Positions 1-64,000 of a DNA stretch of 64,000 nt are shown in pieces. Source of the stretch: Chamaelirium japonicum (lineage: Eukaryota > Streptophyta > Magnoliopsida > Liliales > Melanthiaceae); assembly GCA_947650365.1 (NCBI GenBank), contig OX393550.1, positions 54,076,879-54,140,878 of the forward strand, written 5' to 3'. The notes beneath the pieces are model-generated. The model made no database searches and had not been told where the DNA came from. It saw only the letters and a list, made by a program, of their open reading frames with translations. The translations under genes and the position numbers were made by a program. How positions within the stretch are numbered: position 1 is the stretch's first letter; the number at the start of each line of letters is the position of its first letter.

Positions 1-312
1 TTCATTCATACGATCCATTCTAATTCATTCATACAATGCATTATAATTCTTTCACATGATCCATTCTAATTCATTCGTACGATCCATTCTAATTCATTCG
101 TACAATCCATTCTATTTCATTTGTACGATCCATTCTTACTCATTCGTATGATCCATTCTAATTCATTCGTACGATCCATTCTAATTCATTTGTACGATCC
201 ATTCTAATTCTTTCACACGATCCATTCTAATTCATTCGTAGGATCCATTCTAATTCATTCGTACAATCTATTCTAATTCATTCGTACGATCCATTCTAAT
301 TCATTCGTACGA
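1..312 (-). repeat. Satellite block 1, reverse orientation
   Basis: The block runs off the left edge of the window. The CTATTTC and CTTACTC variant monomers of the composite module are at about 110-145, and a GTAGG variant is at about 238. It ends inside a perfect palindrome, GTACGATCGTAC, at 307-318. The same switch, with the same neighbouring variants, recurs at 42937 and 60513. Confidence 0.95.
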
Positions 313-1389
313 TCGTACGAATGAATTAGAATGGATCGTACGGAATGAATTTGAATGGATTGTATGAATGAATTAGGATGGATACATTCGTGCGAATGAA
401 TTAGAATGGATCATACGAATGAGTAAGAATGGATCGTACGAATGAAATAGAATGGATTGTACGAATGAATTAGAATGGATCGTACAAATGAATTAGAATG
501 CATCGTACGAATGAATTAGAATGGATCATACGAATGAATTAGAATGGATCGTGTGAAAGAATTAGAATGGATTGTATGAATGAATTAGAATAGATCGTAT
601 GAATGAATTAGAATGGATCGTACGAATGAATTAGAATGGATCGTACGAATGAACTAGAATGGATACATTCATGCGAATGAATTAGAATGGATCGTACGAA
701 GGAATTAGAATGGATCGTACGAATGAATTAGAATGGATCGTACGAATGAATTAGAATAGATCGTACGAATGAATTAGAATGGATCGTACGAAGGAATTAG
801 AATGGATCGTACGAATGAATTAGAATGGATATATTCGTGCAAATGAATTAGAATGGATCGTATGAATGTATTAGAATGGATCGTATGAATGAATTAGAAT
901 GGATTCGTACGAATGAATTAGAATGGATACATTCGTGCGAATGAATTAGAATGGATCGTTCCAACGAGTAAGAATGGATCGTACGAATGAATAGAATGGA
1001 TCGTATGAATGAATTAGAATGGATACATTCGTGTGAATGAATTAGAATGGATCGTATGAATGAATTAGAATAGATTTTATGAATGAATTAGAACTGATCG
1101 TACGAATGAATTAGAATGGATACATTCGTGCGAATGAATTAGAATGGATTGTATGAATGAATTAGAATGGATCCTATGAATGAATTAGAATGGATCGTAC
1201 GAATGAATTAGAATGGATCTTACGAATGAAATAGAATAGATTGTACGAATGAATTAGAATGGATTCGTATGAATGAATTAGAATGGATGCATTCGTGCGA
1301 ATGAATTAGAATGGATCGTACCAATAAGTAAGAATGGATCGTACGAATGAAATAGAATGGATTGTGCGAATGAATTAGAATGGATCGCA
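313..1389 (+). repeat. Satellite block 2, forward orientation
   Basis: 23-bp monomers are interspersed with 28-bp ACATT variants, for example at about 660 and 920. A one-base insertion variant (TACGGAATG) sits one monomer after the switch, as it does after the sister switches at 42937 and 60513. Positions 690-890 are repeated inverted at about 1500-1712. Confidence 0.95.
690..890 (+). repeat. Left arm of a long inverted repeat (partner 1500-1712)
   Basis: The order of variants here is GAAGG, two standard, one AGAATAGA, GAAGG, the ATATATTCGTGCAAATG long variant, then GAATGTATTAG. The same order reads on the opposite strand in the next block. The spacing between the GAAGG and ATATATT markers is about 134 bp in both arms. 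The arms are therefore copies of one composite segment, not just generic monomers facing each other. Confidence 0.85.
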
Positions 1390-1764
1390 CGAATGTATCC
1401 ATTCTAATTCATTCGTACGATCCATTCTAATTCATTTGTATGATCCATTCTAATTCATTCGTATGATCCATTCTAATTAATTCGTACGATCCATTCTAAT
1501 TCACTCATACGATCCATTCTAATACATTCATACGATCCATTCTAATTCATTTGCACGAATATATCCATTCTAATTCATTCGTACGATCCATTCTAATTCC
1601 TTCGTACGATCCATTCTAATTCATTCGTACGATCTATTCTAATTCATTCGTACGATCCATTCTAATTCATTCGTACGATCCATTCTAATTCCTTCGTACG
1701 ATCCATTCTAATTCATTCGTACGATCCATTCTAATTCATTCGTACAATCTATTCTAATTCAATC
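1390..1764 (-). repeat. Satellite block 3, reverse orientation
   Basis: The block starts at GGATCGCACGAATGTATCC and ends with ...CGTACAATCTATTCTAATTC followed by AATCGTACGAATGGATACATT. That exit switch is shared with 8738, 47499 and 61803. Confidence 0.95.
1500..1712 (-). repeat. Right arm of a long inverted repeat (partner 690-890)
   Basis: Reverse-complemented, this stretch matches 690-890 monomer by monomer: GAAGG variants, AGAATAGA, the ATATATTCGTGC long variant and GAATGTATTAG. The two arms differ at a few single positions, such as GAATGAATT against GAGTGAATT. The loop between them is about 600 bp. Confidence 0.85.
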
Positions 1765-3770
1765 GTACGAATGGATACATTCGTATGAATGAATTAGAAT
1801 GGATCGTACGAATGAGTAAGAATGGATCGTACGAATGAAATAGAATGGATTGCACGAATGAATTAGAATGGATTGTACGAATGAATTAGAATGGATCGTG
1901 CAAATGAATTAGAATGGATCGTATGAATGAATTAGAATGGATCGCATGAGTGAATTAGAATGGATCGTACGAATGAATTAGAATGGATTGTATGAATGAA
2001 TTAGAATGGATCGTATGAATGAATTAGAATGGATCTTGTGAATGAATTAGAATGGATCGGACGAATGAATTAGAATGGATTGTACGAATGAATTAGAATG
2101 GATCGTACGAATGAATTAGAATGGATACATTCGTCCGAATGAATTTGAATGGATCATACGAATGAGTAAGAATGGATCGTACGAATGAAATAGAATAGAT
2201 TGTACGAATGAATTAGAATGGATCGTGCGAATGAATTAGAATGGATCGTACGAATGAATTAGAATGGATCGTGCGAATGAATTCGAATGGATCGTATGAA
2301 TGAATTAGAATGGATACCTTTGTGCAAATGAATTAGAATGGATCGTATGAATGAATTAGAATGGATCGTATGAGTGAATTAGAACGGATAGTACGAATGA
2401 AGTAGAATGGATCGTATGAATGAATTAGAATGGATACATTCGTGCGAATGAATTAGAATGGATCGTATGAATGAATTAGAATAGATTGTGCGAATGAATT
2501 AGAATGGATCGTACGAATGAATTAGAATGGATACATTCGTGCGAATAAATTAGAATGGATCGTACGAATGAATTAGAATGTATTGTACGAATGGATTAGA
2601 ATGGATCCTACGAATGGATTAGAATGGATACCTTTGTGCATATGAATTAGAATGGATCGTATGAATGAATTAGAATGGATCGTAGAATGGATCGTACGAA
2701 TGAATTAGAATGAATTAGAATGGATCGTACGAATGAATTAGAATAGATCATAGGAATGAATTAGAATGGATCGTGCAAATGAATTAGAATGGATACATTC
2801 GTGCGAATGAATTAGAATGGATCGGACGAATGAATTAGAATGGATCGTACGAATGAGTAAAAATGGATCGTACGAATGAAATAGAATAGATCGTACGAAT
2901 GAATTAGAATGGATCGTACGAAGGAATTAGAATGGATCGTACGAATGAATTAGAATGGATATATTCGTGCAAATGAATTAGAATGGATCGTATGAATGTA
3001 TTAGAATGGATCGTATGAGTGAATTAGAATGGATCGTACGAATGAATTAGAATGGATCGTATGAATGAATTAGAATGGATACATTCGTGTGAATGAATTA
3101 GAATGGATCGTATGAATAAATTAGAATAGATTTTGTTAATGAATTAGAACTGATCGTAAGAATGAATTAGAATGGATATATTCGTGCAAATGAATTAGAA
3201 TGAATTAGAATGGATCGGACGAATGAATTAGAATGGATCGGACGAATGAATTAGAATGGATCGTACGAATGAATTAGAATGGATCAAATGAATGAATTAG
3301 AATGGTTACATTCATGCGAATGAATTAGAATGGATCGTACGAATGGATTAGAATGGATCGTACGAATGGATTAGAATGGATACATTCGTGCGAATGAATT
3401 AGAATGGATCATACTAATGAGTAAGAATGGATCGTACGAATGAAATAGAATGGATTGTACGAATGAATTAGAATGGATCGTGCGAATGAATTTGAATGGA
3501 TCGTACGAATGAATTAGAATGGATCGTGCTAATGAATTAGAATTGATCGTACGAATGAAATAGAATGGATTGTACGAATGATTTAGAATGGATCGTACGA
3601 ATGAATTAGAATGGATCGTACGAATGATTTAGAATGGATACATTCGTGCTAATGAATTAGAATGGATCATACGAATGAGTAAGAATGGATCGTACGAATG
3701 AAATAGAATGGATTGTACGAATGAATTAGAATGGATTCGTACGAATGAATTAGAATGGATACATTCGTGC
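1765..3770 (+). repeat. Satellite block 4, forward orientation
   Basis: This is the forward arm of higher-order copy A1. Markers in order are GGATCTTGTG (2032), the ACCTTTGTGC long variant (about 2308 and 2630), GAACGGATAGTAC (about 2383), a monomer-internal fusion GATCGTAGAATGG (about 2680), GGTTACATTCATGC (about 3304) and GAATGATTTAG. It ends at ATTCGTGC joined to GATCCATTC. Confidence 0.95.
3379..3475 (+). repeat. Composite four-monomer module, forward example (97 bp)
   Basis: Four variants occur in fixed order: the 28-bp GATACATTCGTGC monomer, one beginning GATCATAC, one with GAATGAGTAAG, and one with GAATGAAATAG followed by GATTGTACG. The order holds at many places in both orientations. 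This shows that blocks of variants, not single monomers, are the unit that spreads. Confidence 0.85.
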
Positions 3771-7573: not shown

Positions 7574-8038
7574 GAATTAGAATAGATCGTACGAATGAAT
7601 TAGAATGGATCGTGTGAAAGAATTAGAATGCATTGTATGAATGAATTAGAATGGATCATATGAATGAATTAGAATGGATCGTGCGAATGAATTCGAATGG
7701 ATCGCATGATCCATTCGAATAGAATGGATCGTATGAATGAATTAGAATGGATCGGGCGAATGAATTAGAATGGATTATAGGAATGAATTAGAATGGATCG
7801 TATGAATGAATTAGAATGGATCGTATGAATGAATTAAAATGGATCGTGCGAATGAATTAGAATGGATCGTACGAATGAATTAGAATGGATCGTACGAATG
7901 AATTAGAAGGGATCATACGAATGAGTAAGAATGTATCGTACGAATGAAATAGAATGGATTGTACGAATGAATTAGAATGGATACATTCATGCGAATGAAT
8001 TAGAATGGATCGGACGATTGAATTAGAATGGATCGTAC
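7574..8038 (+). repeat. Satellite block 8, forward orientation
   Basis: A short block that begins a segment repeated near 60.8 kb. It contains the 30-bp palindrome at 7691-7720 and a GATCGGGCG variant at about 7758. It ends at GGATCGTACG joined to TTTCATTCTAATTC. Confidence 0.95.
7691..7720. repeat. 30-bp palindrome, copy 1
   Basis: Perfect inverted repeat with 13-bp arms, ATTCGAATGGATC and its complement, around a GCAT centre. It contains a micro-inverted stretch about half a monomer long. Copies are at 35952, 57088 and 60899, and in the opposite sense at 22931 and 59261. Confidence 0.95.
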
Positions 8039-8738
8039 GTTTCATTCTAATTCATTCGTACGATCCATTCTAATACATTCGTACGATTCATGCTAATTCA
8101 TTCGCACGATCCATTCTAATTCATTCGTACGATCCATTCTTATTCATTCATACGATCCATTCTAATTCATTCGCACAATCCATTCTAATTCATTCGTACA
8201 ATCCATTCTAATTTATTCGTATAATCCATTCTAACTCATTCGGTGGATCCATTCTAATTCATTCGTACGATCCATTCTAATTCATTCCCACGATCCATTC
8301 TAATTTATTCGTACGATCTATTCTAATTCATTCGTACGATCTATTCTAATTCATTCACACGAATGTAACCATTCTAATTCATTTATACGATTCATTCTAA
8401 TTCATTCGTATGAGCTATTCTAATTCATTCGTACGATCCATTCTAATTCATTCGTACGATCCATTGTAATTCATTCATACAATCCATTTAGATTCATTCG
8501 CAGAAATGTATCCATTCAAATTCATTCGTACGATCCAGTCTAATTCATTCGTACGATCCATTCTAATTCCTTCGTACGATCCATTCTAATTAATTCGTAC
8601 GATCTATTCTAATTCATTCGTACGATCCATTCTAATTCATTCGTACGATCCATTCTAATTCCTTCGTATGATCCATTCTAATTCATTCGTACGATCCATT
8701 CTAATTCATTCGTACAATCTATTCTAATTCATTCGTAC
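8039..8738 (-). repeat. Satellite block 9, reverse orientation
   Basis: Diagnostic variants are CTAATACATTCG, CGATTCATGC, CATTCGGTGG (8237-8246) and CATTTAGATTCATTCG. All recur in the same order in blocks 37 and 67, and in part in block 29. Confidence 0.95.
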
Positions 8739-11039
8739 GAATGGATACATTCGTGTGAATGAATTAGAATGGATCGTACGAATGAGTAAGAATGGATCGT
8801 ACAAATGAAATAGAATGGATTGCACGAATGAATTAGAATGGATCGTACGAATGAATTAGAATGGATCGTGTGAAAGAATTAGAATGGATTGTATGAATAA
8901 ATTAGAATGGATCGTACGAATGAATTAGAATGGATCATACGAAGGAATTAGAATGGATCGTACGAATGAATTAGAATGGATCGTACGAATGAATAAGAAT
9001 AGATCGTGCGAATGAAATAGAATGGATCATACGAATGAGTAAGAATGGATCGTATGAATGAATTAGATTGGATACATTTGTGCGAATGAATTAGAATGGA
9101 TCATACGAATGAATTAGAATGGATCGTATGAATGAATTAGAATGGATCGTACGAATGAATTAGAATGGATCGTGCGAATGAATTAGAATGGATCGTACGA
9201 ATGAATTAGAATGGATCGTGTGAAAGAATTAGAATGGATCGTACGAATGAATTAGAATGGATCGTGCGAATGAATTAGAATGGATCGTAAGAATGAATTA
9301 GAATGGATCTTACGAATGAATTAGAATGGATCGTACGAATGAATTAGAATGGATACATTTGTGTGAATGAATTAGAATGGATCGTACGAATGAATTAGAA
9401 TGGATCGTATGAATGAATTAGAATAGATACATTCGTGCGAATGAATTAGAATGGATCGTGCGAATCCATTAGACTGGATCGTGCGAACGAATAAGAATGG
9501 ATCATACGAATGAATTAGAATGGATCGTACGAATTAATTAGAATGGATACATTCGTGCGAATGAATTAGAATGGATTGTATGAATGAATTAGAATGGATC
9601 GTACGAATGAATTAGAATGGATCATACGAATTAATTAGAATGGATCATATGAATGAATTAGAATGGATCGTACGAATGAATTAGAATGGATCGTACGAAT
9701 GAACTAGAATGGATCGTACGAATGAAATAGAATAGATTGTACGAATGAATTAGAATGGATTCGTACGAATGAATTAGAATGGATACATTCGTGCGAATGA
9801 ATTAGAATGGATACATTCGTGCGAAAGAATTAGAATAGATCGTATGAATGAATTAGAATGGATCCTATGAATGAAATAGAATGGATCGTGCGAATGAAAT
9901 AGAATGGATCGTACGAATGAATTAGAATGGATCGTGCTAATGAATTAGAATTGATCGAATGAATGAATTAGCATGGATCGTGCTAATGAATTAGAATGGA
10001 TCGTACGAATGAATTAGAATGGATCAAATGAATGAATTAGAATGGTTACATTCATGCGAATGAATTAGAATGGATCGTACGAATGGATTAGAATGGATCG
10101 TACGAATGGATTAGAATGGATACATTCGAGCGAATGAATTAGAATGGATCGTACGGAATGAATTAGAATGGATTGTATGAATGAATTAGAATGGATCGTG
10201 CGAATGAATTAGAATGGATCGTAAGAATGAATTAGAATGGATCTTAAGAATGAATTAGAATGGATCGTACGAATGAGTAAGAATGGATCGTACAAATGAA
10301 ATAGAATGGATTGTACGAATGAATTAGAATGGATTCGTACGAATAAATTAGAATGGATACATTCGTGCGAATGAATTAGAATGGATCATACGAATGAGTA
10401 AGAATGGATCGTACGAATGAAATAGAATAGATTGTACGAATTAATAAGAATGGATCCTACGAATGAATTAGAATGGATCGTGTGAAAGAATTAGAATAGA
10501 TTGTATGAATGAATTAGAATGGATCATACGAATGAATTAGAATGGATCGTACGAATGAATTAGAATGGATACATTCGTGCGAATGAATTAGAATTGATCG
10601 TACGAATGAATTAGAATGGATCGTGTGAATGAATTAGAATGGATCGTACGAATGAATTAGAATGGATCGTACGAATGAACTAGAATAGATACATTCGTGC
10701 GAATGAATTAGAATGGATCGTACGAATGAATTAGAATGGATCGTACGAATGAATTAGAATGGATCTTACGAATGAATTAGAATGGATCGTACGAATGAAT
10801 TAGAATGAATCGTATGAATGAATTCGAATGGATACATTCGTGCGAATGAATTAGAATGGATCGGACGAATGAATTAGAATGGATCGGACGAATAAATTAG
10901 AATGGATCGTACGAATGAATTATAATGGATCGTACGAATAAATTAGAATGGATCGTACGAATAAATTAGAATGGATACATTCGTCCGAATGAATTAGAAT
11001 GGATCATACGAATGAGTAAGAATGGATCATACGAATGAA
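8739..11039 (+). repeat. Satellite block 10, forward orientation
   Basis: It opens with GGATACATTCGTGTG and a GATTGCACG variant. The GAATCCATTAGACTGG marker is at about 9462, and CGTACGGAATG appears again at about 10153. It ends abruptly at GAATGAATCCATTC, where AAT is shared by both orientations. Confidence 0.95.
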
Positions 11040-14106: not shown

Positions 14107-14235
14107 TTAGAATGGAATATATGAATGAATTAGAATGGATCGTACGAATAAATTAGAATGGATCGTATGAATGAATTAGAATGGATCGTACGAATGAATT
14201 AGAATGGATCGTGCGAATGAATTCGAATGGATCGT
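14107..14235 (+). repeat. Satellite block 14, short forward block
   Basis: About 5-6 monomers. It enters through a damaged junction (GGATCTTAGAATGGAATATATG) and leaves at GGATCGTACGATCC, a 14-bp perfect palindrome centred at 14235/14236. Confidence 0.95.
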
Positions 14236-15123
14236 ACGATCCATTCTAATTCATTCATACAATCCATTCTAATTCATTCGCACGAATGTATCCATTCTAA
14301 TCCATTCGTACGATCCATTCTAATCCATTCGTACGATCCATTCTAATTCATTCGCACAAATGTATCCATTCTAATTCATTCGTACGATCCATTCTAATTC
14401 ATTCGTAAGATCCATTCTAATTCATTCGTACGATCCATTCTAATTCATTCGTACGATCCATTCTAATTCATTCGCACGAATGTATCCATTCTTGTTCATT
14501 CGTACGATCCATTCTAATTCATTCGTACGATCCATTCTAATTCCTTCGTACGATCCGTACTAATTCATTCGTAATTCATTCTAATTCATTCATACAATCC
14601 ATTCTAATTCTTTCACACGATCCATTCTAATTCATTCGTACGTTCCATTCCAATTCATTAGCACGATCCATGCTAATTCATTCGTTCGATCAATTCTAAT
14701 TCATTAGCACGATCCATTCTAATTCATTCGTACGATCCATTCTAATTCATTCGCACGATCCATTCTAATTCATTCATCGGATCCATTCTAATTCATTCAT
14801 ACGATCTATTCTAATTCTTTCGCACGAATGTATCCATTCTAATTCATTCGCACGAATGTATCCATTCTAATTCATTCGTACGATCCATTCTAATTCATTC
14901 GTACGATCCATTCTAATTCATTCGTACGATTCATTCTAATTCATTCATACGATCTATTCTAATTCATTCATACAATCCATTCTAATTCTTTCACACGATC
15001 CATTCTAATTCATTTGTACGATCCATTCTAATTCATTCGCACAATCCATTCTATTTCATTCCTACGATCCATTCTTACTCATTCGTATGATCCATTCTAA
15101 TTCATTCTCACGAATGTATCCAT
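14236..15123 (-). repeat. Satellite block 15, reverse orientation
   Basis: Contains two consecutive 28-bp variants (about 14820-14870) and CATTAGCACGATCCATGC monomers. It ends at GTATCCATAATGGATCG, a switch shared with 41901 and 52274. Confidence 0.95.
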
Positions 15124-16416: not shown

Positions 16417-17088
16417 CATTCGTATGATCCATTCTAATTCATTCGGACGAATGTATCCATTCTAATTTATTCGTACGATCCATTCTAATTCATTCGTACT
16501 ATCCATTCTAATTCATTCGTACGATCCATTCTAATTCATTCGTCCGATCCATTCTAATTCATTCACACGATCCATTCTAATTCATTCGTACGAATGTATC
16601 CATTCCATTCGTACGATCCATTCATACGATCCATTCTAATTCATTCATACAATCCATTCTAATTCTTTCACCCGATCCATTCTATTTCATTCGTACGATC
16701 CATTCTAATTCATTCGTACGATCCATTCTAATTCATTCGTACGATCCATTCTACGATCCATTCTAATTTATTTGTGTCCATTCTATTTCATTCGCACGAT
16801 CCATTCTAATTCATTCGTGCAATCTATTCTAATTCATTCGTACGATCCATTCTAATTCATTCGTACGATCCATTCTAATTCATTCATACAATCCATTCTA
16901 ATTTATTCGCACGAGTGTATCCATTCTAATTCATTTGCACGATCCATTCTAATTCATTCCTATGATCTATTCTAATTCATTCGTACGATCCATTCTAATT
17001 CATTCTAATTCATTCGTACGATCCATTCTACGATCCATTCTAATTGATTCGTATATTCCATTCTAATTCATTAGCACGATCCATGCTA
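16417..17088 (-). repeat. Satellite block 19, reverse orientation, disordered
   Basis: Contains several partial monomers and small deletions, e.g. GTATCCATTCCATTCG (about 16590), CATTCTACGATCC (about 16750) and CATTCTAATTCATTCTAATTC (about 17000). It is less regular than neighbouring blocks. Confidence 0.9.
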
Positions 17089-17108
17089 ATGAATTAGAAT
17101 GGATCGTA
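17089..17108 (+). repeat. Single-monomer inversion (block 20)
   Basis: One forward monomer flanked by reverse arrays on both sides: CCATGCTAATGAATTAG enters through TAAT, and GGATCGTACGATCC leaves through a 14-bp palindrome. It is the smallest inversion in the window. Confidence 0.9.
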
Positions 17109-21800: not shown

Positions 21801-21912
21801 TCGTACGATTCATTCTAATTCATTCGTGCAATCCATTCTATTTCATTCGTACGATCGATTCTTACTCATTCGTACGATCCATTCTAATTCATTCACACGA
21901 ATGTATCCATTC
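18896..21912 (-). repeat. Satellite block 23, longest reverse block (about 3.0 kb)
   Basis: 28-bp variants occur about every 100-250 bp. CATTCTAGTTCATTCG marks subsegments at about 19365, 19605 and 19945 that repeat the same run of variants. It ends at GTATCCATTCC joined to TACGAATG. Confidence 0.95.
19680..20440 (-). repeat. Duplicated segment (partner 46300-47060)
   Basis: Collinear marker order: CTAGTTCATTCG (19946 and 46565), GATCAATTC, CTTTCACACG, GTAGGATCC, CGTACAATCTATTCTATTTC (20190 and 46808), CTTACTC. The offset is constant at about 26618 bp, so indels between the copies are few. Confidence 0.8.
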
Positions 21913-34876: not shown

Positions 34877-34910
34877 TGTGGGTGCAAATTTTGGCATAAG
34901 TTTACCTACT

Positions 34911-35108
34911 ACCACGGGACCCACCGGCCCTGCCTGGTGGGCCCACGAGGACTACCACGGGACCCACCGGCCCTGCCTGGTGGGCCCACGAGGACTACTA
35001 TGGGACCCACCGGCCCTGCCTGGTGGGCCACACGAGGACTACCACGGGACCCACCGGCCCTGCCTGGTGGGCCCACGAGGACTACCACGGGACCCACCGG
35101 CCCTGCCT
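34911..35108 (+). repeat. 43-bp GC-rich tandem repeat in the LTR U3 (4.6 copies)
   Basis: Units start at 34911, 34954, 34997 (44 bp, with a CA insertion and ACTATGG for ACCACGG), 35041 and 35084 (25-bp partial). Each has CCCACC and GGTGGG arms that can pair around a 10-base loop, and units 1, 2 and 4 contain the perfect palindrome GTGGGCCCAC (34937, 34980, 35067). The array lies just upstream of the TATA box, where LTR enhancers usually sit. Composition contrasts sharply with the AT-rich satellite. Confidence 0.93.
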
Positions 35109-35172
35109 TGAGGATCCCCAGATACGGCAGCAGAAACCGCCATTTACCCCGGAATTCCCCACCAGAGAAGCC

Positions 35173-35180
35173 TATAAATA
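35173..35180 (+). promoter_or_regulatory. Probable TATA box of solo LTR 1
   Basis: TATAAATA in the context CCTATAAATAGCAGAG, a strong plant-type TATA element about 65 bp after the end of the 43-bp repeats. Transcription would be expected to start about 30 bp downstream, near 35205. Whether it is active cannot be seen. Confidence 0.7.
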
Positions 35181-35392
35181 GCAGAGCCTTCGAATGTAAA
35201 AGGATTGATTCTGAAAAAAGATCGAATTCTCAGTTCTAAGAAACCAAAGCTCTGGGATTTCTAACTTCCGATCTACCATCTCTCTTTGATCTTCTTTTCT
35301 CTTTCGAAGAGATCAGAGAGTTTTCAGTGACACTCGGCCTGTCGAGGTTACTTCAACTGAAGTGTTAGTGAATTCGGGTTGCTCCCTATAGC

Positions 35393-35437
35393 ACGGAGAC
35401 GTAGGCTTCGGCTGAACTCCGAGATCACATCTTGTGT
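35393..35437 (+). other. Putative conserved R/U5 region of solo LTR 1
   Basis: CGGAGACGTAGGC, then GCTGAACTCCGAG and CTTGTGTC. In plant Ty3-type elements a similar string (GGACGTAGGC, a CCGAACCACG-like block, then CTTGTGT) is common in this part of the LTR. I recognise the resemblance from memory and have not aligned it. Confidence 0.45.
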
Positions 35438-35587
35438 CACAATTTCTCTGATTGCATTCCTCTATTTGCATATCTAAAGACTTCGACTTCAATCAACAGA
35501 TCGATCAACGATCTTCGACATCAACTTCGACTCCAATTGACTGGTGCTGCGAGAGTCTTCGGGTCGGCACGAAGATTTTCCCCCACA

Positions 35588-38240: not shown

Positions 38241-38571
38241 TGTTGGAAATAAATCAGAGGCGCAACGGAAGCCGGACTCGATCTTAGGATCGATACGGTG
38301 TGCGATACATTTTTAAAAATTTCTTAAGAAACAATCATATGTGCAAGATTAAAATGAAATGCAATCGAACCCCTATGGTCATCTATCGAAACACACCATA
38401 AATGTTATGCATGCAATTCAATCGATCTAGGGTTTTGTTTATTATACCTCCGTGCGGGATTTAACACCGCGATGTTAATCTTCCAAGTTGATGATGACGG
38501 AAGTATCCACATGCGTGGGAGAAGCCTCGTTCGTCTTCGGGTACACCCGATCTCGCGAATCGACCCGGATC

Positions 38572-38607
38572 CTTGCACTCCAATCTCTGAGTGCTTCGGA
38601 GTGCAAG
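38572..38607. other. Perfect 10-bp stem-loop in solo LTR 2
   Basis: CTTGCACTCC (38572-38581) pairs with GGAGTGCAAG (38598-38607) around a 16-base loop that contains another GAGTGC. It lies about 330 bp from the 3' end of the LTR on the minus strand, so it may fall in the transcribed R/U5 part. Confidence 0.85.
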
Positions 38608-38700
38608 CTTTCTCTTCTTCTTTATCACACCCACTCAATGAGGAGAAGATGATGAGATGATGAAGATTTTCTCTTCACACCTTAGGTCAAACCCAAAGAA

Positions 38701-38880
38701 TGAGAGAGATGAGTGCCCGAGAGAGAGAGGGAGGCCAAAACCGAACACAAGGGAGAGAGGGATCGGTCTTTCTCTTCAAAATCTGAATTAGGCTCGGTTT
38801 TCCTTGCCTAATATGTCTTGAAAACCGTGCCCCTCTCTCCCCTTGTCCATATGAACCGTTCCCCCTTCTCTCTCTCTCAT
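38701..38880. repeat. GA/CT low-complexity tracts in solo LTR 2
   Basis: GAGAGAGAGAGGGAGG near 38718 and CTTCTCTCTCTCTCATT near 38865. CAAGGGAGAGAGGG (38748-38761) can pair with CCCTCTCTCCCCTTG (38831-38845) apart from one bulged base. On the minus strand the first tract is a pyrimidine patch of the kind common near plant core promoters; no convincing TATA element was assigned. Confidence 0.7.
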
Positions 38881-39202
38881 TAATCCTCAAAAATAAATGC
38901 CCACTATTGTATAGTTGCCATATTTGGTTTTGCAATTAAAGGGAATAGATTCAAATCATTTCAAATCTGAATTAAACCCTTTAAATATGGATTTGATGGC
39001 CATGCATATTTTTCCTAATGGGGGGGTCGGCCATTAGGGCATGCGGGACATTTTAAAATGACCAAAATGCCCCCCATGCATCTAGTGGCCATCCACCTCA
39101 TACCGGAGCATATATGCTCCACCTCAGTGCATGATAAAGTACTCTAACACTTAGAGAACCTCATCCATACCTATTTAACATACCATAGAGCTTTGAATAG
39201 TG

Positions 39203-39259
39203 TTTTTACTATTTACTGGGGTGCCCTCAGTAAAACGTGGGGTGCCCCTATAGTAAAAA
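39203..39259. other. Nested inverted and direct repeats in solo LTR 2
   Basis: TTTTTACTAT (39203-39212) pairs with ATAGTAAAAA (39250-39259). Inside it, TTTACTG (39212-39218) pairs with CAGTAAA (39228-39234) around GGGTGCCCT. GGGGTGCCC followed by AGTAAAA also occurs twice as a direct repeat. The result is a compact structured element in the middle of the LTR. Confidence 0.85.
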
Positions 39260-40455
39260 TCACTAAATACACAGACCGTGCTCTAGTGCGACACGCACAC
39301 ACGGAACGAACTCCTTATGGCATTATGGCAACATCGTGTGTCCCTACACTACTCTGGGGTTTCCCCCTAGTGAACACACTTAGTCTTGTGCATCCACCAT
39401 GCCCTAGTGCAATACACTCATGGAAAACAGGACGATTAAGGCATTATTTCTTCAACTCGTATTGTACAGTGAGACAAGGAGAAAGTTATGATTCGTAACG
39501 ATCGTGGATAAGGTGGAACCTTCAGGGACTAGGATTCATGGCTTCCAACCGGACTCGATCGACACACTACCCAAGTGTCCCTGTCAACCCTCTAGGTCCC
39601 AGTTAACCTGCGTGGCCACCCAGAGTGCGATGCAGGCTGCACTCCAATTCTCCCAGACTTACTAAGCTCTCTCGCATACCCCTGCTCTCCGCTTAGATAG
39701 GTAATTAGATGTCCCTTCACTCGGTGCCATGTGTCAACTTGAGCGGTGGAGAGCACCGTCAGACTCAAGTGACTATATGACTAGGTTCCTTCCAGGTTGA
39801 TTAACACATCGTACCTCCGATCATTTTGGCCAAACAACCAGATTCGGTCTAACAGCTCAACTGTTAACCACCAGGCCTGGTTTTAGTACAGTGTATGTCA
39901 GACCAAGGAACGCACCTCCCAATGGGGATGTGAATAGCCTGCAGGAGTGACATGTCGATGCAACGCCAACTCAGCAACCCAGCGCACCGTGGTTTTGGGT
40001 CGTGGTTAGATCCCTCACACGTTGGTGAACCAAAGTTACCCAAATAGGTTAGTCGACCGGTCATGGTTCCTCAGGGTTTAGGACTTATTACCCTAAGCAG
40101 AAACACGGCTATGTGCACCAGTGTCTGCTCACCGATCTGTGCACCGTGTTGGTTCTGTTCAGCCACGGACACTGTGCTTGGCAATGACCATAGTGGAAAA
40201 ACCCATGCTTTGTCATTCCAACAGCTTAACCTGAAAGGGTGACCAACCCTAATCAGAACTGCGAACAATTTAGGCTAATAGTACTAATCAACTGAGTCTC
40301 CCACTCAGATGAACCACTATACAGCCATGGCTCTTATCAGTTCAATATATAGAACACGTAGAATACGCACCAATTAAGCTATTCTAATATAAATATCAAC
40401 TCATTTATTAATCAACCATGGTTTTTACAAGCCCTAGACCATATCTTACTCAACA

Positions 40456-40460
40456 AATGG
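40456..40460. repeat. Right target-site duplication of solo LTR 2 (AATGG)
   Basis: Identical to 38236-38240 and continuous with ATCGTACGAATG of the satellite. Confidence 0.95.
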
Positions 40461-42937: not shown

Positions 42938-43548
42938 TCGTACGAATGAATTAGAATGGATCGTACGGAATGAATTAGAATGGATTGTATGAATGAATTA
43001 GAATGGATACATTCGTGCGAATGAATTAGAATGGATCATACGAATGAGTAAGAATGGATCGTACGAATGAAATAGAATGGATCGTACAAATGAATTAGAA
43101 TGGATCGTACGAATGAATTAGAATGGATCGTACGAATGAATTAGAATGGATCATACGAATGAATTAGAATGGATCGTGTGAAAGAATTAGAATGGATTGT
43201 ATGAATGAGTTAGAATAGATGGTATGAATAAATTAGAATGGATCGTACGAATGAATTAGAATGGATCGTACGAATGAACTAGAATGGATCGTACGAATGA
43301 ATTAGAATGGATCGTACGAATGAATTAGAATAGATCGTACGAATGAATTAGAATGGATCGTACGAAGCAATTAGAATGGATCGTACGAATGAATTAGAAT
43401 AAATATATTCGTGCAAATGAATTAGAATGGATCGTATGAATGTATTAGAATGGATCGGATCGTACGAATGAATTAGAATGGATTCGTACGAATGAATTAG
43501 AATGGATACATTCGTGCGAATAAATTAGAATGGATCATACGAATGAGT
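42938..43548 (+). repeat. Satellite block 44, forward orientation
   Basis: The start copies block 2, including CGTACGGAATG. A GGATCGGATCG duplication is at about 43452. It ends at GAATGAGTGATCC. Confidence 0.95.
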
Positions 43549-44065
43549 GATCCATTCTAATTCATTCGTATGATCCATTCTAATTCATTTGTACGATCCA
43601 TTCTAATTCATTCGTACGATCCATTCTAATTCATTCGTACGATCCATTCTAATTCATTCGCACAAATGTATCCATTCTAATTCATTCGTACGATCCATTC
43701 TAATTCATTCGTACGATACATTCTTATTCATTCGTAAGATCCATTCTGATTCATTCGTACGATCCATTCTAATTCATTCGTACGATCCATTCTAATTCAT
43801 TCGCGAATGTATCCATTCTAATTCATTCGTACGATCCATTCTAATAATTCATTCGTACGATCCATTCTAATTCATTCGTACGATCCATTCTAATTCCTTC
43901 GTACGATCCATTCTAATTCATTCGTACGATCTATTCTAATTCATTCGTACGATCTATTCTAATTCCTTCGTACGATCCATTCTAATTCATTCGTACGATC
44001 CATTCTAATTAATTCGTACGATCCATTCTAATTAATTCGTACGATCCATTCTAATTCATTCGTAT
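43549..44065 (-). repeat. Satellite block 45, reverse orientation
   Basis: A deletion variant CATTCGCGAATGTATCC (about 43800) is a shortened 28-bp monomer, and CTAATAATTC shows 3-bp slippage (about 43845). Confidence 0.95.
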
Positions 44066-45067
44066 GAATTAGAATGGATCATACGAAGGAATTAGAATGG
44101 ATCGTACGAATGAATTAGAATGGATCGTACGAAGGAATTAGAATGGATCGTACGAATGAATTAGAATGGATCGTACGAATGAATTAGAATAGATCGTACG
44201 AATGAATTAGAATGGATCGTACGAAGGAATTAGAATGGATCGTACGAATGAATTAGAATGGATCATACGAATGAACTAGAATGGATACATTCGTGCGAAT
44301 GAATTAGAATGGATCGTACGAATGAATTAGAATGGATCGTACGAATGAATTAGAATGGATACATTCGCGAATGAATTAGAATGGATCGTACGAATGAATT
44401 AGAATGGATCTTACAAATGAATTAGAATGGATCGTATGAATGAATTAGAATGGATCGTACAAATTAATTAGAATGGATACATTTGTGCGAATGAATTAGA
44501 ATGGATCGTACGAATGAATTACGATGGATCGTACGAATGAATTAGGACGGATCGTACGAATGAATTAGAATGGATCGTACGAATGAATTAGAATGGATCA
44601 TACGAATGAATTAGAATGGATCATACGAATGAGTAAGAATGGATCATACGAATGAATTAGAATGGATCATTTGAAAGAAATAGAATGGATCGTACGAATG
44701 AATTAGAATGGATCGTGCGAATGAATTAGAATGGATCGTACGAATGAATTAGAATGGATACATTTGTGCGAATGAATTAGAATGGATCGTACGAATGAAT
44801 TAGAATGGATCGTGTGAAAGAATTAGAATGGATTGTACGAATTAATTAGAATGGATCCGATGAATGAATTAGAATGGATCGTGCGAATGAATTAGAATGG
44901 ATCGTACGAATGAATTAGAATGGATCAAATGAATGAATTAGAATGGATCAAATGAATGAATTAGAATGTACGAATGGATTAGAATGGATCGTACGAATGG
45001 ATTAGAATGGATACATTCGTGCGAATGAATTAGAATGGATTGTATGAATGAATTAGAATGGATCGTA
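44066..45067 (+). repeat. Satellite block 46, forward orientation
   Basis: Contains a shortened long variant GATACATTCGCGAATG (about 44360), matching the one in block 45 on the other strand. It exits through GGATCGTACGATCC, as at 60089. Confidence 0.95.
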
Positions 45068-53261: not shown

Positions 53262-55311
53262 TACGATCCATTCGAATTCATTCGCACGATCCATTCTAAT
53301 TCATTCATACGATCCATTCTAATTCATTCATACAATCCATTCTAATTCTTTCACACGATCCATTCTAATTTATTCGTAGGATCCATTCTAATTCATTCGT
53401 ACAATCTATTCAATTTCATTCGTACGATCCATTCTTACTCATTGGTACGATCCATTCTAATTCATTCCATTCTAATTCATTCGCTCGAATGTATCCATTC
53501 TAATCCATTCGTACGATCCATTCTAATCCATTCGTACGATCCATTCTAATTCATTCGCAAGAATGTAACCATTCTAATTCATTCGTACGATCCATTCTAA
53601 TTCATTCGTACGATCCATTCTAATTCATTCGTACGATCCATTCTAATTCATTCGCACGAATGTATTCATTCAAATTCATTCATATGATCCATTCTAATTC
53701 ATTCATACAATCCATTCTAATTCTTTCACACGATCCATTCTAATTCATTCGTACGATCCATTCTAATTCATTCGTACAATCAATTCGCATGAATGTATCC
53801 ATTCTAAATCATTCGCATGAATGTATCCATTCTAAATTCATTCGTACGATCCATTCTAAATCATTCGCATGAATGTATCCATTCTAGTTCATTCGTACGA
53901 TCCATTCTAATTCATTCTTACGATCCATTCTAATCCATTCGTACAATCCATTCTAATTCTTTCACACGATCCATTCTAATTCATTCATAGGATCCATTCT
54001 AATTCATTCGTACAATCTATTCTATTTCATTCGTACGATCCATTCTTACTCATTCGTATGATCTATTCTAATTCATTCGGACGAATGTATCCATTCTAAT
54101 TTATTCGTAAGATCCATTCTAATTCATTCGTACGATCTATTCTAATTCATTCGTACGATCCATTCTTACTCATTCGTATGATCCATTCTAATTCATTCGT
54201 ACGATCCATTCTAATTCATTCGTACGATCGATTCTAATTCATTCGCACTATCCATTCTAATTTATTCGTACGATCCATTCTAATTCATTCGTATGATCCA
54301 TTCTAATTTATTCGTTCCAATATATCCATTCTAATTCATTCCGTACGACCCTTTCTAATTCATTCGTACGATCCATTCTAATTCATTCGTACGAATGTAT
54401 CCATTCTAATTCATTCGTACGATCCATTCTAATTCATTCGTACGATCCATTCTAATTCATTCGTACGATCCATTCTAATTCATTCGGACGAATGTATCCA
54501 TTCAAATTTATTCGTACGATCCATTCTAATTCTTTTATTTGATCCATTCTAATTCATTCGTACGATCCATTCTAATTCATTCGTCCGATCCATTCTAATT
54601 CATTCGCACGAATGTATCCATTCTAATTCATTCGTACGATCCATTCTAATTCATTCGTACAATCCATTCTAATTCATTCGTAAGATCGATTCTAATTCAT
54701 TCGTACGATCCATTCTAATTCATTCGTACGATCGATTCTAATTCATTCGCATGAATGTATCCATTCTAGTTCATTCGTGCGATCCATTCTAATTCATTAG
54801 TACGATCCATTCTAATTCATTCGCACGATCCATTCTACTTCATTCGTACGATCCATTCTAATTCATTCATACGATCCATTCTAATTCATTCGCACGAATG
54901 TATCCATTCTAATTCATTCATACGATCCATTCTACTTCATTCGTACTATCCGTTCTAATTCACTCATACGATCCATTCTAATTCATTCATACGATCCATT
55001 CTAATTCATTTGCACGAATATATCCATTCTAATTCATTCGTACGATCCATTCTAATTCCTTCGTACGATCCATTCTAATTCCTTCGTACGATCCATTCTA
55101 TTTCATTCGTATGATCCATTCTAATTAATTCGTACGATCCATTCTAATTCATTCGTATGGTCCATTCTAATTCATTCGTACGATCCATTCTTACTCATTC
55201 GTACAATCCATTCTAATTCATTCATACAATCCATTCTAATTCATTCCGTACGATCCATTCTAATTCATTCATACGATCTATTCTTTCATACAATCCATTC
55301 TAATTCTTTCG
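53262..55311 (-). repeat. Satellite block 59, reverse orientation
   Basis: Shows several local irregularities: CATTCCATTC (about 53463), three GCATGAATGTATCC units near 53788-53882, and CGTACGACCCTTTC (about 54344). The end belongs to the segment shared with block 29. Confidence 0.95.
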
Positions 55312-55500: not shown

Positions 55501-57909
55501 GATCATACGAATGAATTAGAATGGATCGTACGAATTAATTAGAATGGGTACATTCGTGCGAATGAATTAGAATGGATTGTATGAATGAATTAGAATGGAT
55601 CGTACGAATGAATTAGAATGGATCATACGAATTAATTAGAATGGATCGTACGAATGAATTAGAATGGATCGTACGAATGAATTAGAATGGATCGTGCGAA
55701 TGGATTAGAATGGATCGTACGAATGAATTAGAATGGATACATTTGTGCGAATGAATTAGAATGGATCGTACGAATGAATTAGAATGGATCGTATGAATGA
55801 ATTAGAATGGATCGTACGAATGAATGAGAATGGATCGTGCGAATGATTTAGAATTTATCGTACGAATGAATCAGAATGGATCGTGTGAAAGGATTAGAAT
55901 GGATCGTACGAATGAATTAGAATGGATCGTGCGAATGAATTAGAATGGATCGTACGAATGAATTAGAATGGATACATTTGTGCGAATGAATTAGAATGAA
56001 TCGTACGAATGAATTAGAATGGATCGTATGAATGAATTAGAATGGATTGTACGAATGAATTAGAATGGATCGTGCGAATGAATTAGAATGGATCGTACGA
56101 ATGAATTAGAATGGATCGTACGAATGAACTAGAATGGATACATTCGTGCGAATGAATTAGAATGAATCGTACGAATGAATTAGAATGGATCGTACGAATG
56201 AATTAGAATGGATCGTACGAATGGATTAGAATGGATCATACGAATGAATTAGAATGAATCGTGCGAATGAATTAGAATGGATCGAATGAATGAATTAGAA
56301 TGGATATATTCGAGCGAATGAATTAGAATAGATCGTAGGAATGAATTAGAATGGATCATACGAATGAATTACAATGGATCGTACGAATGAATTAGAATGG
56401 ATCCTACGAATGAATTAGAATGGATCGTGTGAATGTATTAGAATGGATACATTCATGCGAATGAATTAGAATGGATCGTACGAATGGATTAGAATGGATC
56501 GTACGAATGAATTAGAATGGATACATTTGTGCGAATGGATTAGAATGGATCGTACAAATGAATTAGAATGGATCGTATGAATGAATTAGAATGGATACAT
56601 TCGTGCGAATGAATTAGATTGGATCGGACGAATGAATTAGAATGGATCGTACGAATGAATTAGAATGGATCAAATGAATGAATTAGAATGGTTATATTCA
56701 TGCAAATGAATTAGAATGGATCGTACGAATGGATTAGAATGGATCGTACGAATGGATTAGAATGGATACATTCGAGCGAATGAATTAGAATGGATCGTAC
56801 GAATGAATTAGAATGGATCGTACGAATGGATTAGAATGGATTCTAAGAATGGATTAGAATGGATACCTTTGTGCATATGAATTAGAATGGATCGTACGAA
56901 TGAAATAGAATGGATCGTACGAAGGAATTAGAATGGATCGTACGAATGAATTAGAATGGATCGTACGAATGAATTAGAATGGATCGTACGAAGGAATTAG
57001 AATGGATCGTATGAATGAATTAGAATGCATTGTATGAATGAATTAGAATGGATCGTATGAATCAATTAGAATGGATCGTGCGAATGAATTCGAATGGATC
57101 GCATGATCCATTCGAATAGAATGGATCGTATGAATGAATTAGAATGGATCGGGCGATTGAATTAGAATGGATTATAGGAATGAATTAGAATGGATCGTAT
57201 GAATGAATTAGCATGGATCGTATGAATGAAGTAGAATGGATCGTGCGAATGAATTAGAATGGATCATACGAATGAATTAGAATAGATCGTACGAATGAAT
57301 TAGAATGGATCGTACGAATGAATTAGAATGGATCATACGAATGAATTAGAATAGATCGTACGAATGAATTAGAATGGATCGTACGAAGGAATTAGAATGG
57401 ATCGTACGAATGAATTAGAATGGATCGGACGAATGAATTAGAATGGATCGTACGAATGAATTAGAATGGATCAAATGAATGAATTAGAATGGTTACATTC
57501 ATGCGAATGAATTAGAATGGATCGTAGGATCGTATGATTGAATTAGAATGGATCGTGCGAAAGAATTAGAATAGATCGTATGAATGAATTAGAATGGATC
57601 GTACGAATGAATTAGAATGGATCGTACGAATGAATTAGAATGGATCGTACGAAGGAATTAGAATGGATCGTACGAATGAATTAGAATGGATATATTCGTG
57701 CAAATGAATTAGAATGGATCGTATGAATGTATTAGAATGGATCGTACGAATGAATTAAAATGGATTCGTATGAATGAATTAGAATGGATACATTCGTACG
57801 AATGAATTAGAATGGATCGTACCAATGAGTAAGAATGGATCGTACGAATGAATTAGAATGGATCGTGTGAAAGAATTAGAATGGATTGTATGAATGAATT
57901 AGAATGAAT
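55312..57909 (+). repeat. Satellite block 60, forward orientation
   Basis: One of the longest forward blocks, rich in standard monomers. It contains the 30-bp palindrome at 57088 and a GTAGGATCG fusion at about 57524. It ends at GAATGAATTCGTTCGATC. Confidence 0.95.
57088..57117. repeat. 30-bp palindrome, copy 4
   Basis: Perfect 13-bp arms around GCAT. Upstream GAATGCATTG and downstream GATCGGGCGATTG monomers match the surroundings of copies 1, 3 and 5. Confidence 0.95.
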
Positions 57910-58713: not shown

Positions 58714-59417
58714 CATTCTAATTCCTTCGTACGATCCATTCTAATTCATTCGTACGATCCATTCTATTTCATTCGTATGATCCATTCTAATTCCTTCGTA
58801 CGAACCATTCTAATTCCTTCGTATCCATTCTAATTCACTCATACGATCCATTCTAATCCATTCGTACGATCCATTCTAATTCATTCGCAGGAATGTAACC
58901 ATTCTAATTCATTCATACGATCCATTCTAATTCATTCACACGAATGTATCCATTCTAATTCATTCATACGATCCATTCTAATTCATTCGTACGATCCATT
59001 CTAATTCACTCATACGATCCATTCTAATACATTCATACGATCCATTCTAATTCATTTGCACGAATATATCCATTCTAATTCATTCGTACGATCCATTCTA
59101 ATTCATTCGTACGATCCATTCTAATTCATTCGTACGATCCATTCTAATTCATTCATACGATCCATTCTAATTCATTCATACGATCCATTCTAATTTATTC
59201 CTACAATCCATTCTAATTCATTCGCCCGATCCATTCTAATTCATTCATACGATCCATTCTATTCGAATGGATCATGCGATCCATTCGAATTCATTCGCAC
59301 GATCCATTTTAATTCATTCATACGATCCATTCTAATTCATTCACACAATGCATTCTAATTCTTTCACACGATCCATTCTAATTCATTCGTACGATCCATT
59401 CTAATTTATTAATATGA
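58714..59417 (-). repeat. Satellite block 63, reverse orientation
   Basis: Holds the opposite-sense 30-bp palindrome at 59261 within the same context as block 25. It exits at ATATGATCGTACG. Confidence 0.95.
59261..59290. repeat. 30-bp palindrome, opposite sense, copy 5
   Basis: Perfect 13-bp arms around ATGC, reverse-complement sense to the copies at 7691, 57088 and 60899. Confidence 0.95.
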
Positions 59418-60089: not shown

Positions 60090-60513
60090 ACGATCCATTC
60101 GAATTCATTCGCACGATCCATTCTAATTTATTCATAGGATCCATTCTAATTCATTCATACAATCCATTCTAATTCTTTCACACGATCCATTCTAATTCAT
60201 TCGTAGGATCCATTCTAATTCATTCGTACAATCTATTCTATTTCATTCGTACGATCCATTCTTACTCATTCGTATGATCCATTCTAATTCATTCGGACGA
60301 ATGTATCCATTCTAATTTATTCGTACGATCCATTCTAATTCATTCATACGATCCATTCTAATTCATTCGTACGATCCATTCTTACTCATTCGTATGATAC
60401 ATTCTAATTCATTCGTACGATCCATTCTAATTCATTCGTACGATCCATTCTAATTCATTCACACAATCTATTCTAATTCATTCGTACGATCCATTCTAAT
60501 TCATTCGTACGAT
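60090..60513 (-). repeat. Satellite block 65, reverse orientation
   Basis: The end copies the ends of blocks 1 and 43 and passes through GTACGATCGTAC. Confidence 0.95.
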
Positions 60514-61247
60514 CGTACGAATGAATTAGAATGGATCGTACGGAATGAATTAGAATGGATTGTATGAATGAATTAGAATGGATACATTCATGCGAATGAA
60601 TTAGAATGGATCATAAGAATGAGTCAGAATGGATCGTACGAATGAAATTGAATGGATTATACGAATGAATTAGAATGGATCGTACAAATGAATTAGAATG
60701 GATCGTACGAATGAATTAGAATGGATCATACGAATGAGTAAGAATGGATCGTACAAATGAAATAGAATGGATTGTACGAATGAATTAGAATGGATCGTAC
60801 GAATGAATTAGAATGGATCGTGTGAAAGAATTAGAATGCATTGTATGAATGAATTAGAATGGATCGTATGAATGAATTAGAATGGATCGTGCGAATGAAT
60901 TCGAATGGATCGCATGATCCATTCGAATAGAATGGATCGTATGAATGAATTAGAATGGATCGGGCGAATGAATTAGAATGGATTGTAAGAATGAATTAGA
61001 ATGGATCGTATGAATGAATTAGAATGGATCGTATGAATGAATTAGAATGGATCGTGCGAATGAATTAGAATGGATCGTACGAATGAATTAGAATGGATCG
61101 TACGAATGAATTAGAATGGATCATACGAATGAGTAAGAATGGATCGTACGAATGAAATAGAATGGATTGTACGAATGAATTAGAATGGATACATTCATGC
61201 GAATGAATTAGAATGGATCGGACGATTGAATTAGAATGGATCGTACG
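60514..61247 (+). repeat. Satellite block 66, forward orientation
   Basis: Begins with CGTACGGAATG like blocks 2 and 44. It then carries the 60899 palindrome and ends with the CGGACGATTG / GTACGATTC switch. Confidence 0.95.
60899..60928. repeat. 30-bp palindrome, copy 6
   Basis: Perfect 13-bp arms around GCAT. Position and context are equivalent to copy 1 in the duplicated segment. Confidence 0.95.
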
Positions 61248-61248
61248 A

Positions 61249-61803
61249 TTCATTCTAATTCATTCGTACGATCCATTCTAATACATTCGTACGATTCATG
61301 CTAATTCATTCGCACGATCCATTCTAATTCATTCGTACGATCCATTCTTATTCATTCATACGATCCTTTCTAATTCATTCGCACAATCCATTCTAATTCA
61401 TTCGTACAATCCTTTCTAATTCATTCGTATGATCCATTCTATCTCATTCGGTGGATCCATTCTAATTCATTTGTATGATCCATTCTAATTTATTCCCACG
61501 ATCCATTCTAATTCATTCGTACGATCCATTGTAATTCATTCATACAATCCATTTAGATTCATTCGCACAAATGTATCCATTCAAATTCATTCGTACGATC
61601 CAGTCTAATTCATTCGTACGATCCATTCTAATTCCTTCGTACGATCCATTCTAATTCATTCGTACGATCTATTCTAATTCATTCCTACGATTCATTCTAA
61701 TTTATTCGTACGATCCATTCTAATTCCTTCGTATGATCCATTCTAATTCATTCGTACGATCCATTCTAATTCATTCGTACAATCTATTCTAATTCATTCG
61801 TAC
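61249..61803 (-). repeat. Satellite block 67, reverse orientation
   Basis: Copy of block 9 with a deletion of about 120 bp between CCACGATCC and CATTGTAATTC. It exits at ATTCGTACGAATGGATACATT. Confidence 0.95.
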
Positions 61804-64000
61804 GAATGGATACATTCGTGTGAATGAATTAGAATGGATCGTACGAATGAGTAAGAATGGATCGTACGAATGAAATAGAATGGATTGCACGAATGAATTA
61901 GAATGGATCGTACGAATGAATTAGAATGGATCGTGTGAAAGAATTAGAATGGATTGTATGAATAAATTAGAATGAATCGTACGAATGTATTAGAATGGAT
62001 CGTACGAAGGAATTAGAATGGATCGTACGAATGAATTAGAATGGATCGTTTGAATGAATTAGAATAGATCGTACGAATGAAATAGAATGGATCATACGAA
62101 TGAGTAAGAATGGATCGTATGAATGAATTAGATTGGATACATTTGTGCGAATGAATTAGAATGGATCGTACGAATGAATTAGAATGGATCGTATGAATGA
62201 ATTAGAATGGATCGTACGAATGAATTAGAATGGATCGTGCGAATGAATTAGAATGGATTGTACGAATGAATTAGAATGGATCGTGTGAAAGAATTAGAAT
62301 GGATCGTACGAATGAATTAGAATGGATCGTGCGAATGAATTAGAATGGATCGTATAAATGAATTAGAATAGATTTTGTGAATAAATTAGAACTGATCGTA
62401 CGAATGAATTAGAGTGGATCGTACGAATGAATTAGAATGGATACATTTGTGTGAATGAATTAGAATGGATCGTACGAATGAATTAGAATGGATCGTATGA
62501 ATGAATTAGAATGGATACATTCGTGCGAATGAATTAGAATGGATCGTGCGAATCCATTAGACTGGATCGTGCGAATGAATAAGAATGGATCATACGAATG
62601 AATTAGAATGGATCGTACGAATTAATTAGAATGGATACATTCGTGCGAATGAATTAGAATGGATTGTATGAATGAATTAGAATGGATCGTACGAATGAAT
62701 TAGAATGGATAATACGAATTAATTAGAATGGATCATACGAATTAATTAGAATGGATCATACGAATGAATTAGAATGGATCGTACGAATGAACTAGAATGG
62801 ATCGTACGAATGAAATAGAATAGATTGTACGAATGAATTAGAATGGATTCGTACGAATGAATTAGAATGGATAGATTCGTGCGAATGAATTAGAATGGAT
62901 ACATTCGTGCGAAAGAATTAGAATAGATCGTATGAATGAATTAGAATGGATCCTATGAATGAATTAGAATGGATCGTGCGAATGAAATAGAATGGATCAT
63001 ACGAATGAATTAGAATGGATCGTGCTAATGAATTAGAATTGATCGAACGAATGAATTAGCATGGATCGTGCTAATGAATTAGAATGGATCGTACGAATGA
63101 ATTAGAATGGATCAAATGAATGAATTAGAATGGTTACATTCATGCGAATGAATTAGAATGGATCGTACGAATGGATTAGAATGGATCGTACGAATGAATT
63201 AGAATGGATACATTCGAGCGAATGAACTAGAATGGATCGTACGTAATGAATTAGAATGGATTGTATGAATGAATTAGAATGGATCGTGCGAATGAATTAG
63301 AATGGATCGTACGAATGAATTAGAATGGATCTTACGAATGAATTAGAATGGATCGTACGAATGAGTAAGAATGGATCGTACGAATGAAATAGAATGGATT
63401 GTACGAATGAATTAGAATGGATTCGTACGAATAAATTAGAATGGATACATTCGTGCGAATGAATTAGAATGGATCATACGAATGAGTAAGAATGGATCAT
63501 ACGAATGAAATAGAATAGATTGTATGAATGAATTAGAATGGATCCTACGAATGAATTAGAATGGATCGTGTGAAAGAATTAGAATGGATTGTATGAATGA
63601 ATTAGAATCGATCGTACGAATGAATTAGAATGGATCGTACGAATGAATTAGAGTGGATACATTCGTGCGAATGAATTAGAATTGATCGTACGAATGAATT
63701 AGAATGGATCGTGCGAATGAATTAGAATGGATCGTACGAATGAACTAGAATGGATACATTCGTGCGAATGAATTAGAATGGATCGTACGAATGAATTAGA
63801 ATGGATCGTACGAATGAATTAGAATGGATCGTACGAATGAATTAGAATGGATCTTACGAAAGAATTAGAATGGATACATTCGTGCGAATGAAATAGAATG
63901 GATCGTACGAATGAACTAGAATGGATCGTACGAATGAACTAGAATGGATACATTCGTGCGAATGAATTAGAATGGATCGTACGAATGAATTAGAATGGAT
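61804..64000 (+). repeat. Satellite block 68, forward orientation
   Basis: Copy of block 10; runs off the right edge of the window still in forward orientation. Confidence 0.95.

Follow-up and report, generated by a model that had tools for sequence, protein, structure and literature searches.

Orientation switches in a Chio1/Chio2-like satellite array of Chamaelirium japonicum: breakpoints enriched for microhomology and probable copying within the array

The locus raises two questions: how a satellite of short monomers comes to reverse its direction 67 times, and whether these reversals arose one by one or are largely copies of one another. The window (the whole stretch of DNA analysed, 64,000 nucleotides) is satellite throughout, interrupted only by two inserts. 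The full monomers number 2548, of which 2090 are 23 bp long (consensus GATCGTACGAATGAATTAGAATG, mean identity 93.8%, 479 exact copies) and 321 are 28 bp long (consensus GATACATTCGTGCGAATGAATTAGAATG, mean identity 95.3%, 95 exact copies). When ACATT is removed from the 28-bp consensus, a single mismatch to the 23-bp consensus is left, which corresponds to a 5-bp indel and one substitution. The 9-bp motif TTCGTACGA was found on one strand of the 23-bp tandem, and the monomer contains the self-complementary 8-bp palindrome TCGTACGA. Throughout the window, the 5 bp by which the 28-bp monomer is longer create CATTCGTGCGAATG, a near-palindrome with two 7-bp arms; the longer form looks like a 23-bp form carrying a built-in miniature flip.

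The whole window was segmented with the aid of a two-orientation circular profile HMM, which gave 72 segments: 70 of satellite (20 to 3,009 bp, median 677) and the two non-satellite inserts. Because the orientation of the satellite does not change across either insert, the 70 satellite segments correspond to 68 blocks and 67 switches. The satellite assigned by the HMM totals 61,078 bp, with 35,135 bp in plus and 25,943 bp in minus orientation. An HMM-free check was performed with four 9-mers and their reverse complements (7485 tags); it gave 67 switches with the minimum run set anywhere from 1 to 4 tags, and 65 with it set at 6. A scan of the HMM switch penalty gave 67 switches at 1e-5 and 65 at 1e-7, 1e-9, and 1e-12, and lax penalties, by letting in extra short flips (several of 10-16 bp), gave 79 at 1e-4 and 81 at 1e-3. 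When six synthetic sequences, each built with 69 known switches, were run through the HMM, 69, 69, 69, 69, 67, and 69 were recovered, with a median position error of 0 in every sequence. The least secure block call is the 20-bp block at 17088-17107. The first-pass annotation had described about 68 blocks and about 67 switches in about 61 kb, or about one switch per 0.9 kb with both orientations well represented: its coordinates were correct, its counts were reproduced independently by the HMM and by the 9-mer tags, and its density and mixture agree with 67 switches in 61.1 kb and with the totals for the two orientations. Very short flips inside blocks, recorded at lax penalties only, lie at 7705-7720, 22931-22946, 35966-35981, 53787-53796, 57102-57117, 59261-59276, and 60913-60928; several of the 10-16 bp flips sit within mutual copies.

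Table 1. Coordinates of the array, its inserts, selected switches, and duplicated segments (positions within the window).
Feature	Position	Strand	Remarks
Satellite array, 68 alternately oriented blocks, 67 switches	1..64000		23-bp GATCGTACGAATGAATTAGAATG and 28-bp GATACATTCGTGCGAATGAATTAGAATG monomers
711-bp insert, TGTGGG...CCCACA	34877..35587		flanked by two GATCG copies (5-bp duplication)
2215-bp insert, TGTTGG...CAACA	38241..40455		flanked by two AATGG copies (5-bp duplication)
14 switches at TCGTACGA	8040, 14235, 17107, 22591, 25015, 26114, 26647, 36320, 45066, 49093, 49954, 55310, 60089, 61244		example 14235..14236
Five switches at GATC in a perfect palindrome, 30-bp arms	310, 23344, 42935, 59415, 60510		example 310..311
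Largest switch class at a flank score of 0.935	1768, 8738, 47500, 61803 (one orientation); 4916, 21912, 33685 (other)		flank comparison
1053-bp imperfect palindrome, 91.4% self-inverted match	43548..44600		centre near switch 44063
3.2-kb segment, switches 8040 and 8738	7735..10915	+	inverted copy 19713-22893 (switches 22591, 21912)
2.8-kb segment	28727..31542	+	direct repeat 3.2-3.3 kb further, 32029-34753, 96.5% over two matches

The satellite is very likely Chio1/Chio2, as judged by comparison with the printed description rather than letter by letter. Chio1 and Chio2 are the CENH3-enriched satellites of the holocentric plant Chionographis japonica, in which they account for approximately 16% of the genome (Kuo et al. 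2023, PMC10264360), and the present species, Chamaelirium japonicum at NCBI, appears to be the same plant. The features in common are the dominance of the 23-bp form over a scarcer 28-bp form, the separation of the two forms by a 5-bp deletion and a 1-bp substitution, a conserved 8-bp dyad able to pair neighbours, the mixture of forward and reverse arrays, and the presence of TTCGTACGA, which Chio has in common with the Chama satellite of Chamaelirium luteum according to the available text of PMC12722358. The palindrome TCGTACGA would be the eight dyad letters printed for Chio. Three and four dyad symmetries have been published for the Chio1/Chio2 monomers, and a hairpin from the 8-bp dyad was predicted by the authors of PMC10264360, who call its role unknown. 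Mixed or alternating orientation of Chio arrays has been in print since 2023 (PMC10264360) and again in 2025 (PMC12722358, available text), both reports coming from one group and concerning one species. All printed Chio1/Chio2 features that could be compared fit and no difference was detected, the comparison being with the printed description rather than with consensus letters; the literature search thus overturned the earlier statement that the family was not recognised, and an unknown satellite was ruled out by the published description (PMC10264360). Six 13-14-mers of the monomer had no match in literature text, the monomer letters matched 0 viral contigs and 0 prokaryote genome contigs, and an Rfam scan of the window returned nothing at gathering cut-offs. 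The window would come from a centromere unit of the holocentric C. japonica, each chromosome of which has many such units, a role that is taken from the published CENH3 data rather than from this window.

Two further systems were compared, both from the available text of their sources. The Chama satellite (PMC12722358) is likewise centromeric, is rich in dyad symmetry, and shares TTCGTACGA, but it has a 60-bp monomer and keeps a uniform orientation over hundreds of kilobases, in contrast with the 23/28-bp monomers and 67 switches of the window; its arrays are described there as being without retrotransposons. The macro-dyad arrays TmSat1 and TmSat2 of Tribolium madens (PMC13081366) share orientation changes at recurrent, conserved inversion sites. 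Their monomers, however, are unrelated to those of the window, and their subarrays measure several kilobases, mostly two per array, as against approximately 0.9 kb per block here; two inversion types predominate in TmSat1, whereas the window holds 18 or more, many of them in both orientations.

Each of the two inserts (Table 1) looks like a solo LTR, as would be consistent with its termini and 5-bp duplication. In the shorter one, a listing of ORFs from 80 aa upwards showed none longer than 100 aa; this insert carries the motif TATAAATA near its middle and a GC-rich 43-bp minisatellite of 4.7 copies at 34908-35108. The longest ORF of the longer insert is 101 aa. Solo LTRs within the array, if they are such, would point to recombination there.

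The breakpoints lie at particular monomer phases, with 28 phase pairs that reduce to 18 types after merging of reverse complements. Mean consensus overlap across the breakpoints is 3.03 bp, compared with 0.60-1.03 bp in six synthetic sets passed through the same HMM. Microhomology of at least 2 bp was found at 51/67 switches (10-15 of 67-69 in the synthetic sets), and an 8-bp overlap, which is the palindrome TCGTACGA, at 14/67 (0-2 of 67-69). Counted per lineage, as defined by flanking sequence below, microhomology of at least 2 bp is present in 29/41 and of 8 bp in 8/41, and 10/41 lineages are without it. Over the merged breakpoint types the mean is 2.33 bp versus 0.34 bp, a value reached in 0 of 2000 simulations. 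Template switching or the pairing of ends, acting at short inverted repeats, would be expected to leave such an excess, and either may have operated here. One breakpoint type, 2/13, falls inside CATTCGTGCGAATG of the 28-bp monomer. The phases also bear on the idea that the array was once uniform and that every minus block was simply cut out and flipped. Both orientations are common, as that idea would have it, but in a few blocks inspected by eye (for example 1397-1768, and the 5/5 type) the phases fail to rejoin on turning the block back, and we regard such an origin as very improbable.

Folding potential was predicted for six hand-picked pieces, which cover 4/67 switches. The four switch-spanning pieces (117-121 bases, single DNA strand) gave -38.8 to -52.7 kcal/mol with z-scores of -11.5 to -16.5, compared with -8.2 and -5.0 kcal/mol (z-scores -1.1 and -0.8) for two in-block pieces of 120-121 bases. 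In the in-block fold of 2901-3021, two adjacent TCGTACGA copies pair, and a hairpin was folded for a GATC-type switch (example 310). The earlier expectation of hairpin-prone arrays is in line with these six predictions, in which hairpin formation at switches is a potential of the sequence. The alternation might be kept by selection, with hairpins or cruciforms of the inverted blocks aiding CENH3 loading. The much better predicted folding of the switch pieces (four versus two pieces), the 8-bp dyad hairpin predicted in PMC10264360, and the conserved inversion sites described for Tribolium in the available text of PMC13081366 would all accord with such a role. Selection of this kind is nevertheless improbable, given that block lengths range from 20 to 3,009 bp and that the large CENH3 arrays of the related Chamaelirium luteum run in one orientation (PMC12722358, available text); as far as the latter source goes, alternation is therefore not required for a centromere.

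The two arms of each switch were compared with one another and with 40 random stretches per switch, and 8/67 switches with an arm shorter than 150 bp were omitted. For the 59 testable switches the arm-to-arm match averaged 0.674, as against 0.668 for the null, with a median rank of 20 of 40, and a simple fold-back origin of every switch was rejected on this result. Arms that beat all 40 random stretches were found at five switches (23344, 30317, 41700, 44063, and 45817), where approximately 1.4 would be expected by chance; the imperfect palindrome around one of these (Table 1) is perhaps a true fold-back duplication. Specially matching arms are absent from the other 54, so most switches connect stretches that are akin at the family level alone. 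The same comparison is relevant to the suspicion that the switches are artefacts of assembly or of fold-back reads. Satellites assemble poorly, and the five switches with specially matching arms are of the kind that such reads would leave. We nevertheless hold this explanation to be extremely improbable: 54/59 testable switches are without such arms, the same switches recur with unlike flanks, the longest matches at 95% identity or more (1.8 kb as a single match, 2.8 kb as a chain) do not reach the means of 14-26 kb published for the HiFi libraries, and the alternation has been reported in two publications, albeit by the same group for the same species.

Duplicated segments were sought by comparison of the window with itself, three monomer shuffles serving as controls. 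At 95% identity or more, 102 pairs of at least 200 bp were found (49 direct, 53 inverted; 18, 2, and 11 in the shuffles), 17 of them of at least 400 bp (0 in the shuffles); at 93% or more, 16 pairs reached at least 800 bp, as against 0 in the three shuffles. The median spacing of the copies is 14.3 kb for direct and 14.5 kb for inverted pairs, and 32 chains of at least 900 bp were assembled, 19 direct and 13 inverted. The clearest inverted case, with two switches per side, is that of 7735-10915 and 19713-22893, which are joined by three overlapping inverted matches (95.7, 96.3, and 95.7%), with a slip of one monomer in one of the three. Parts of 7735-10915 also match 60782-61805 and 62171-63875 in direct orientation. 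The clearest direct case is the 2.8-kb segment and its repeat (Table 1), in which one of two switches is shared: switch 29266/32564 is common to both copies, and 30317 and 33685, which differ in type, fall where the two matches leave a gap. Within homologous neighbouring segments (96.5%, 91.9%), the breakpoint type of 30317 differs from those of 4916 and 33685, as though the switch had been overwritten, or formed anew, on the spot.

Switches were then classed by flanking sequence over 150 bp around each switch, and five shuffles, in which the breakpoints were kept and full monomers redealt, served as nulls. At flank scores of 0.80, 0.85, 0.90, and 0.935, relatives within the window were found for 54, 50, 44, and 39 of the 67 switches, respectively; the corresponding ranges in the shuffles were 38-43, 15-23, 0-4, and 0. 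In view of these shuffle counts, the two upper cuts (0.90 and 0.935) are informative, more so than those at 0.80 and 0.85. A further null was drawn from the window itself and so includes true duplicates, of which the monomer shuffles are free. At 0.90 the switches fall into 14 multi-member classes (44 switches) and 23 singletons, or 37 lineages, and at 0.935 into 13 multi-member classes and 28 singletons, or 41 lineages. Both orientations are represented in 10/13 multi-member classes at 0.935 and in 12/15 at 0.85, the orientation of copies being uncertain in near-symmetric classes. In a stricter test, a BLAST partner with one match spanning the switch by 50 bp was found for only 23/67 switches at 93% and for 14/67 at 95%. 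These null-controlled classes supersede an earlier clustering over 120 bp without nulls, which gave 7 to 31 classes at several cut-offs. Because more than half of the switches have near-identical relatives in the window, many of them are likely copies of older ones.

The main rival to copying is independent recurrence: switches would have arisen repeatedly at palindromic hot spots, and would resemble one another less through descent than through the hot spot and local homogenisation. It draws on the 18 breakpoint types that serve all 67 switches, on the 23-28 lineages with a single member in the window, and on microhomology that is equally strong in the singletons (at least 2 bp in 20/28). It does not readily account for the sharing of flanks by 39/67 switches at a level reached by none in the five breakpoint-keeping shuffles, or for several shared flanks that extend over 0.7-3 kb. 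As a general explanation it is unlikely, and many of the switches may still be separate events at hot spots.

We therefore lean, with some reservation, towards a Chio1/Chio2-type array of a centromere unit in which switches were produced by template switching at monomer palindromes and were then copied and flipped with multi-kilobase segments, likely by homologous recombination. Fold-back of a replication fork, or of a break end, onto a palindromic monomer would give rise to a switch, which would then travel with the segments that contain it. Switches would be duplicated by unequal exchange between direct copies, and a crossover between inverted copies would turn whole segments round without creating a new switch type; together, the two processes would lead to equal numbers of direct and inverted copies, to classes in both orientations, and to unmatched arms. 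Founders would have to be numerous, with 18 by breakpoint type or 37-41 by flank, and 23-28 lineages occur singly in the window. Also weighing against this reading are the low counts of BLAST partners, the high shuffle counts at the 0.80 cut, the 10/41 lineages without microhomology, and the homologous neighbours whose switches differ (30317 as against 33685 and 4916). Birth by fold-back is argued from the breakpoints alone, since the matching arms that it leads one to expect were found at 5/59 switches, unless later exchange has erased them. Processes that work alike are described for yeast in the available text of two sources, namely inverted amplification by fork template switching at short inverted repeats (ODIRA, PMC10766183) and fold-back templated inverted insertions at short inverted repeats (PMC11724301). 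No satellite is involved in either system as described there, and matching arms, which are expected in both, are lacking in 54/59 testable switches here.

The satellite and its alternation were already known, and the anatomy of the switches is the addition made here; no analysis of Chio switch junctions was found in the literature among the matches listed and the text available. One fifth of the switch points (14/67) fall at what would be the palindrome put forward in print as a centromere hairpin. A more specific reading, offered tentatively, is that the array holds a library of discrete junctions that were born at the 8-bp or another short palindrome or microhomology and were then copied and flipped by recombination blind to direction. 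If this is true, the junctions would be inherited as markers, and a holocentromere's history could be traced from them. The question of how Chio expanded (by gene conversion, inversions, or circular DNA), left open by the authors of PMC10264360, becomes testable by means of the switch classes, and the 100 centromere units of the C. japonica assembly, within or between which such classes may be shared, provide the test ground.
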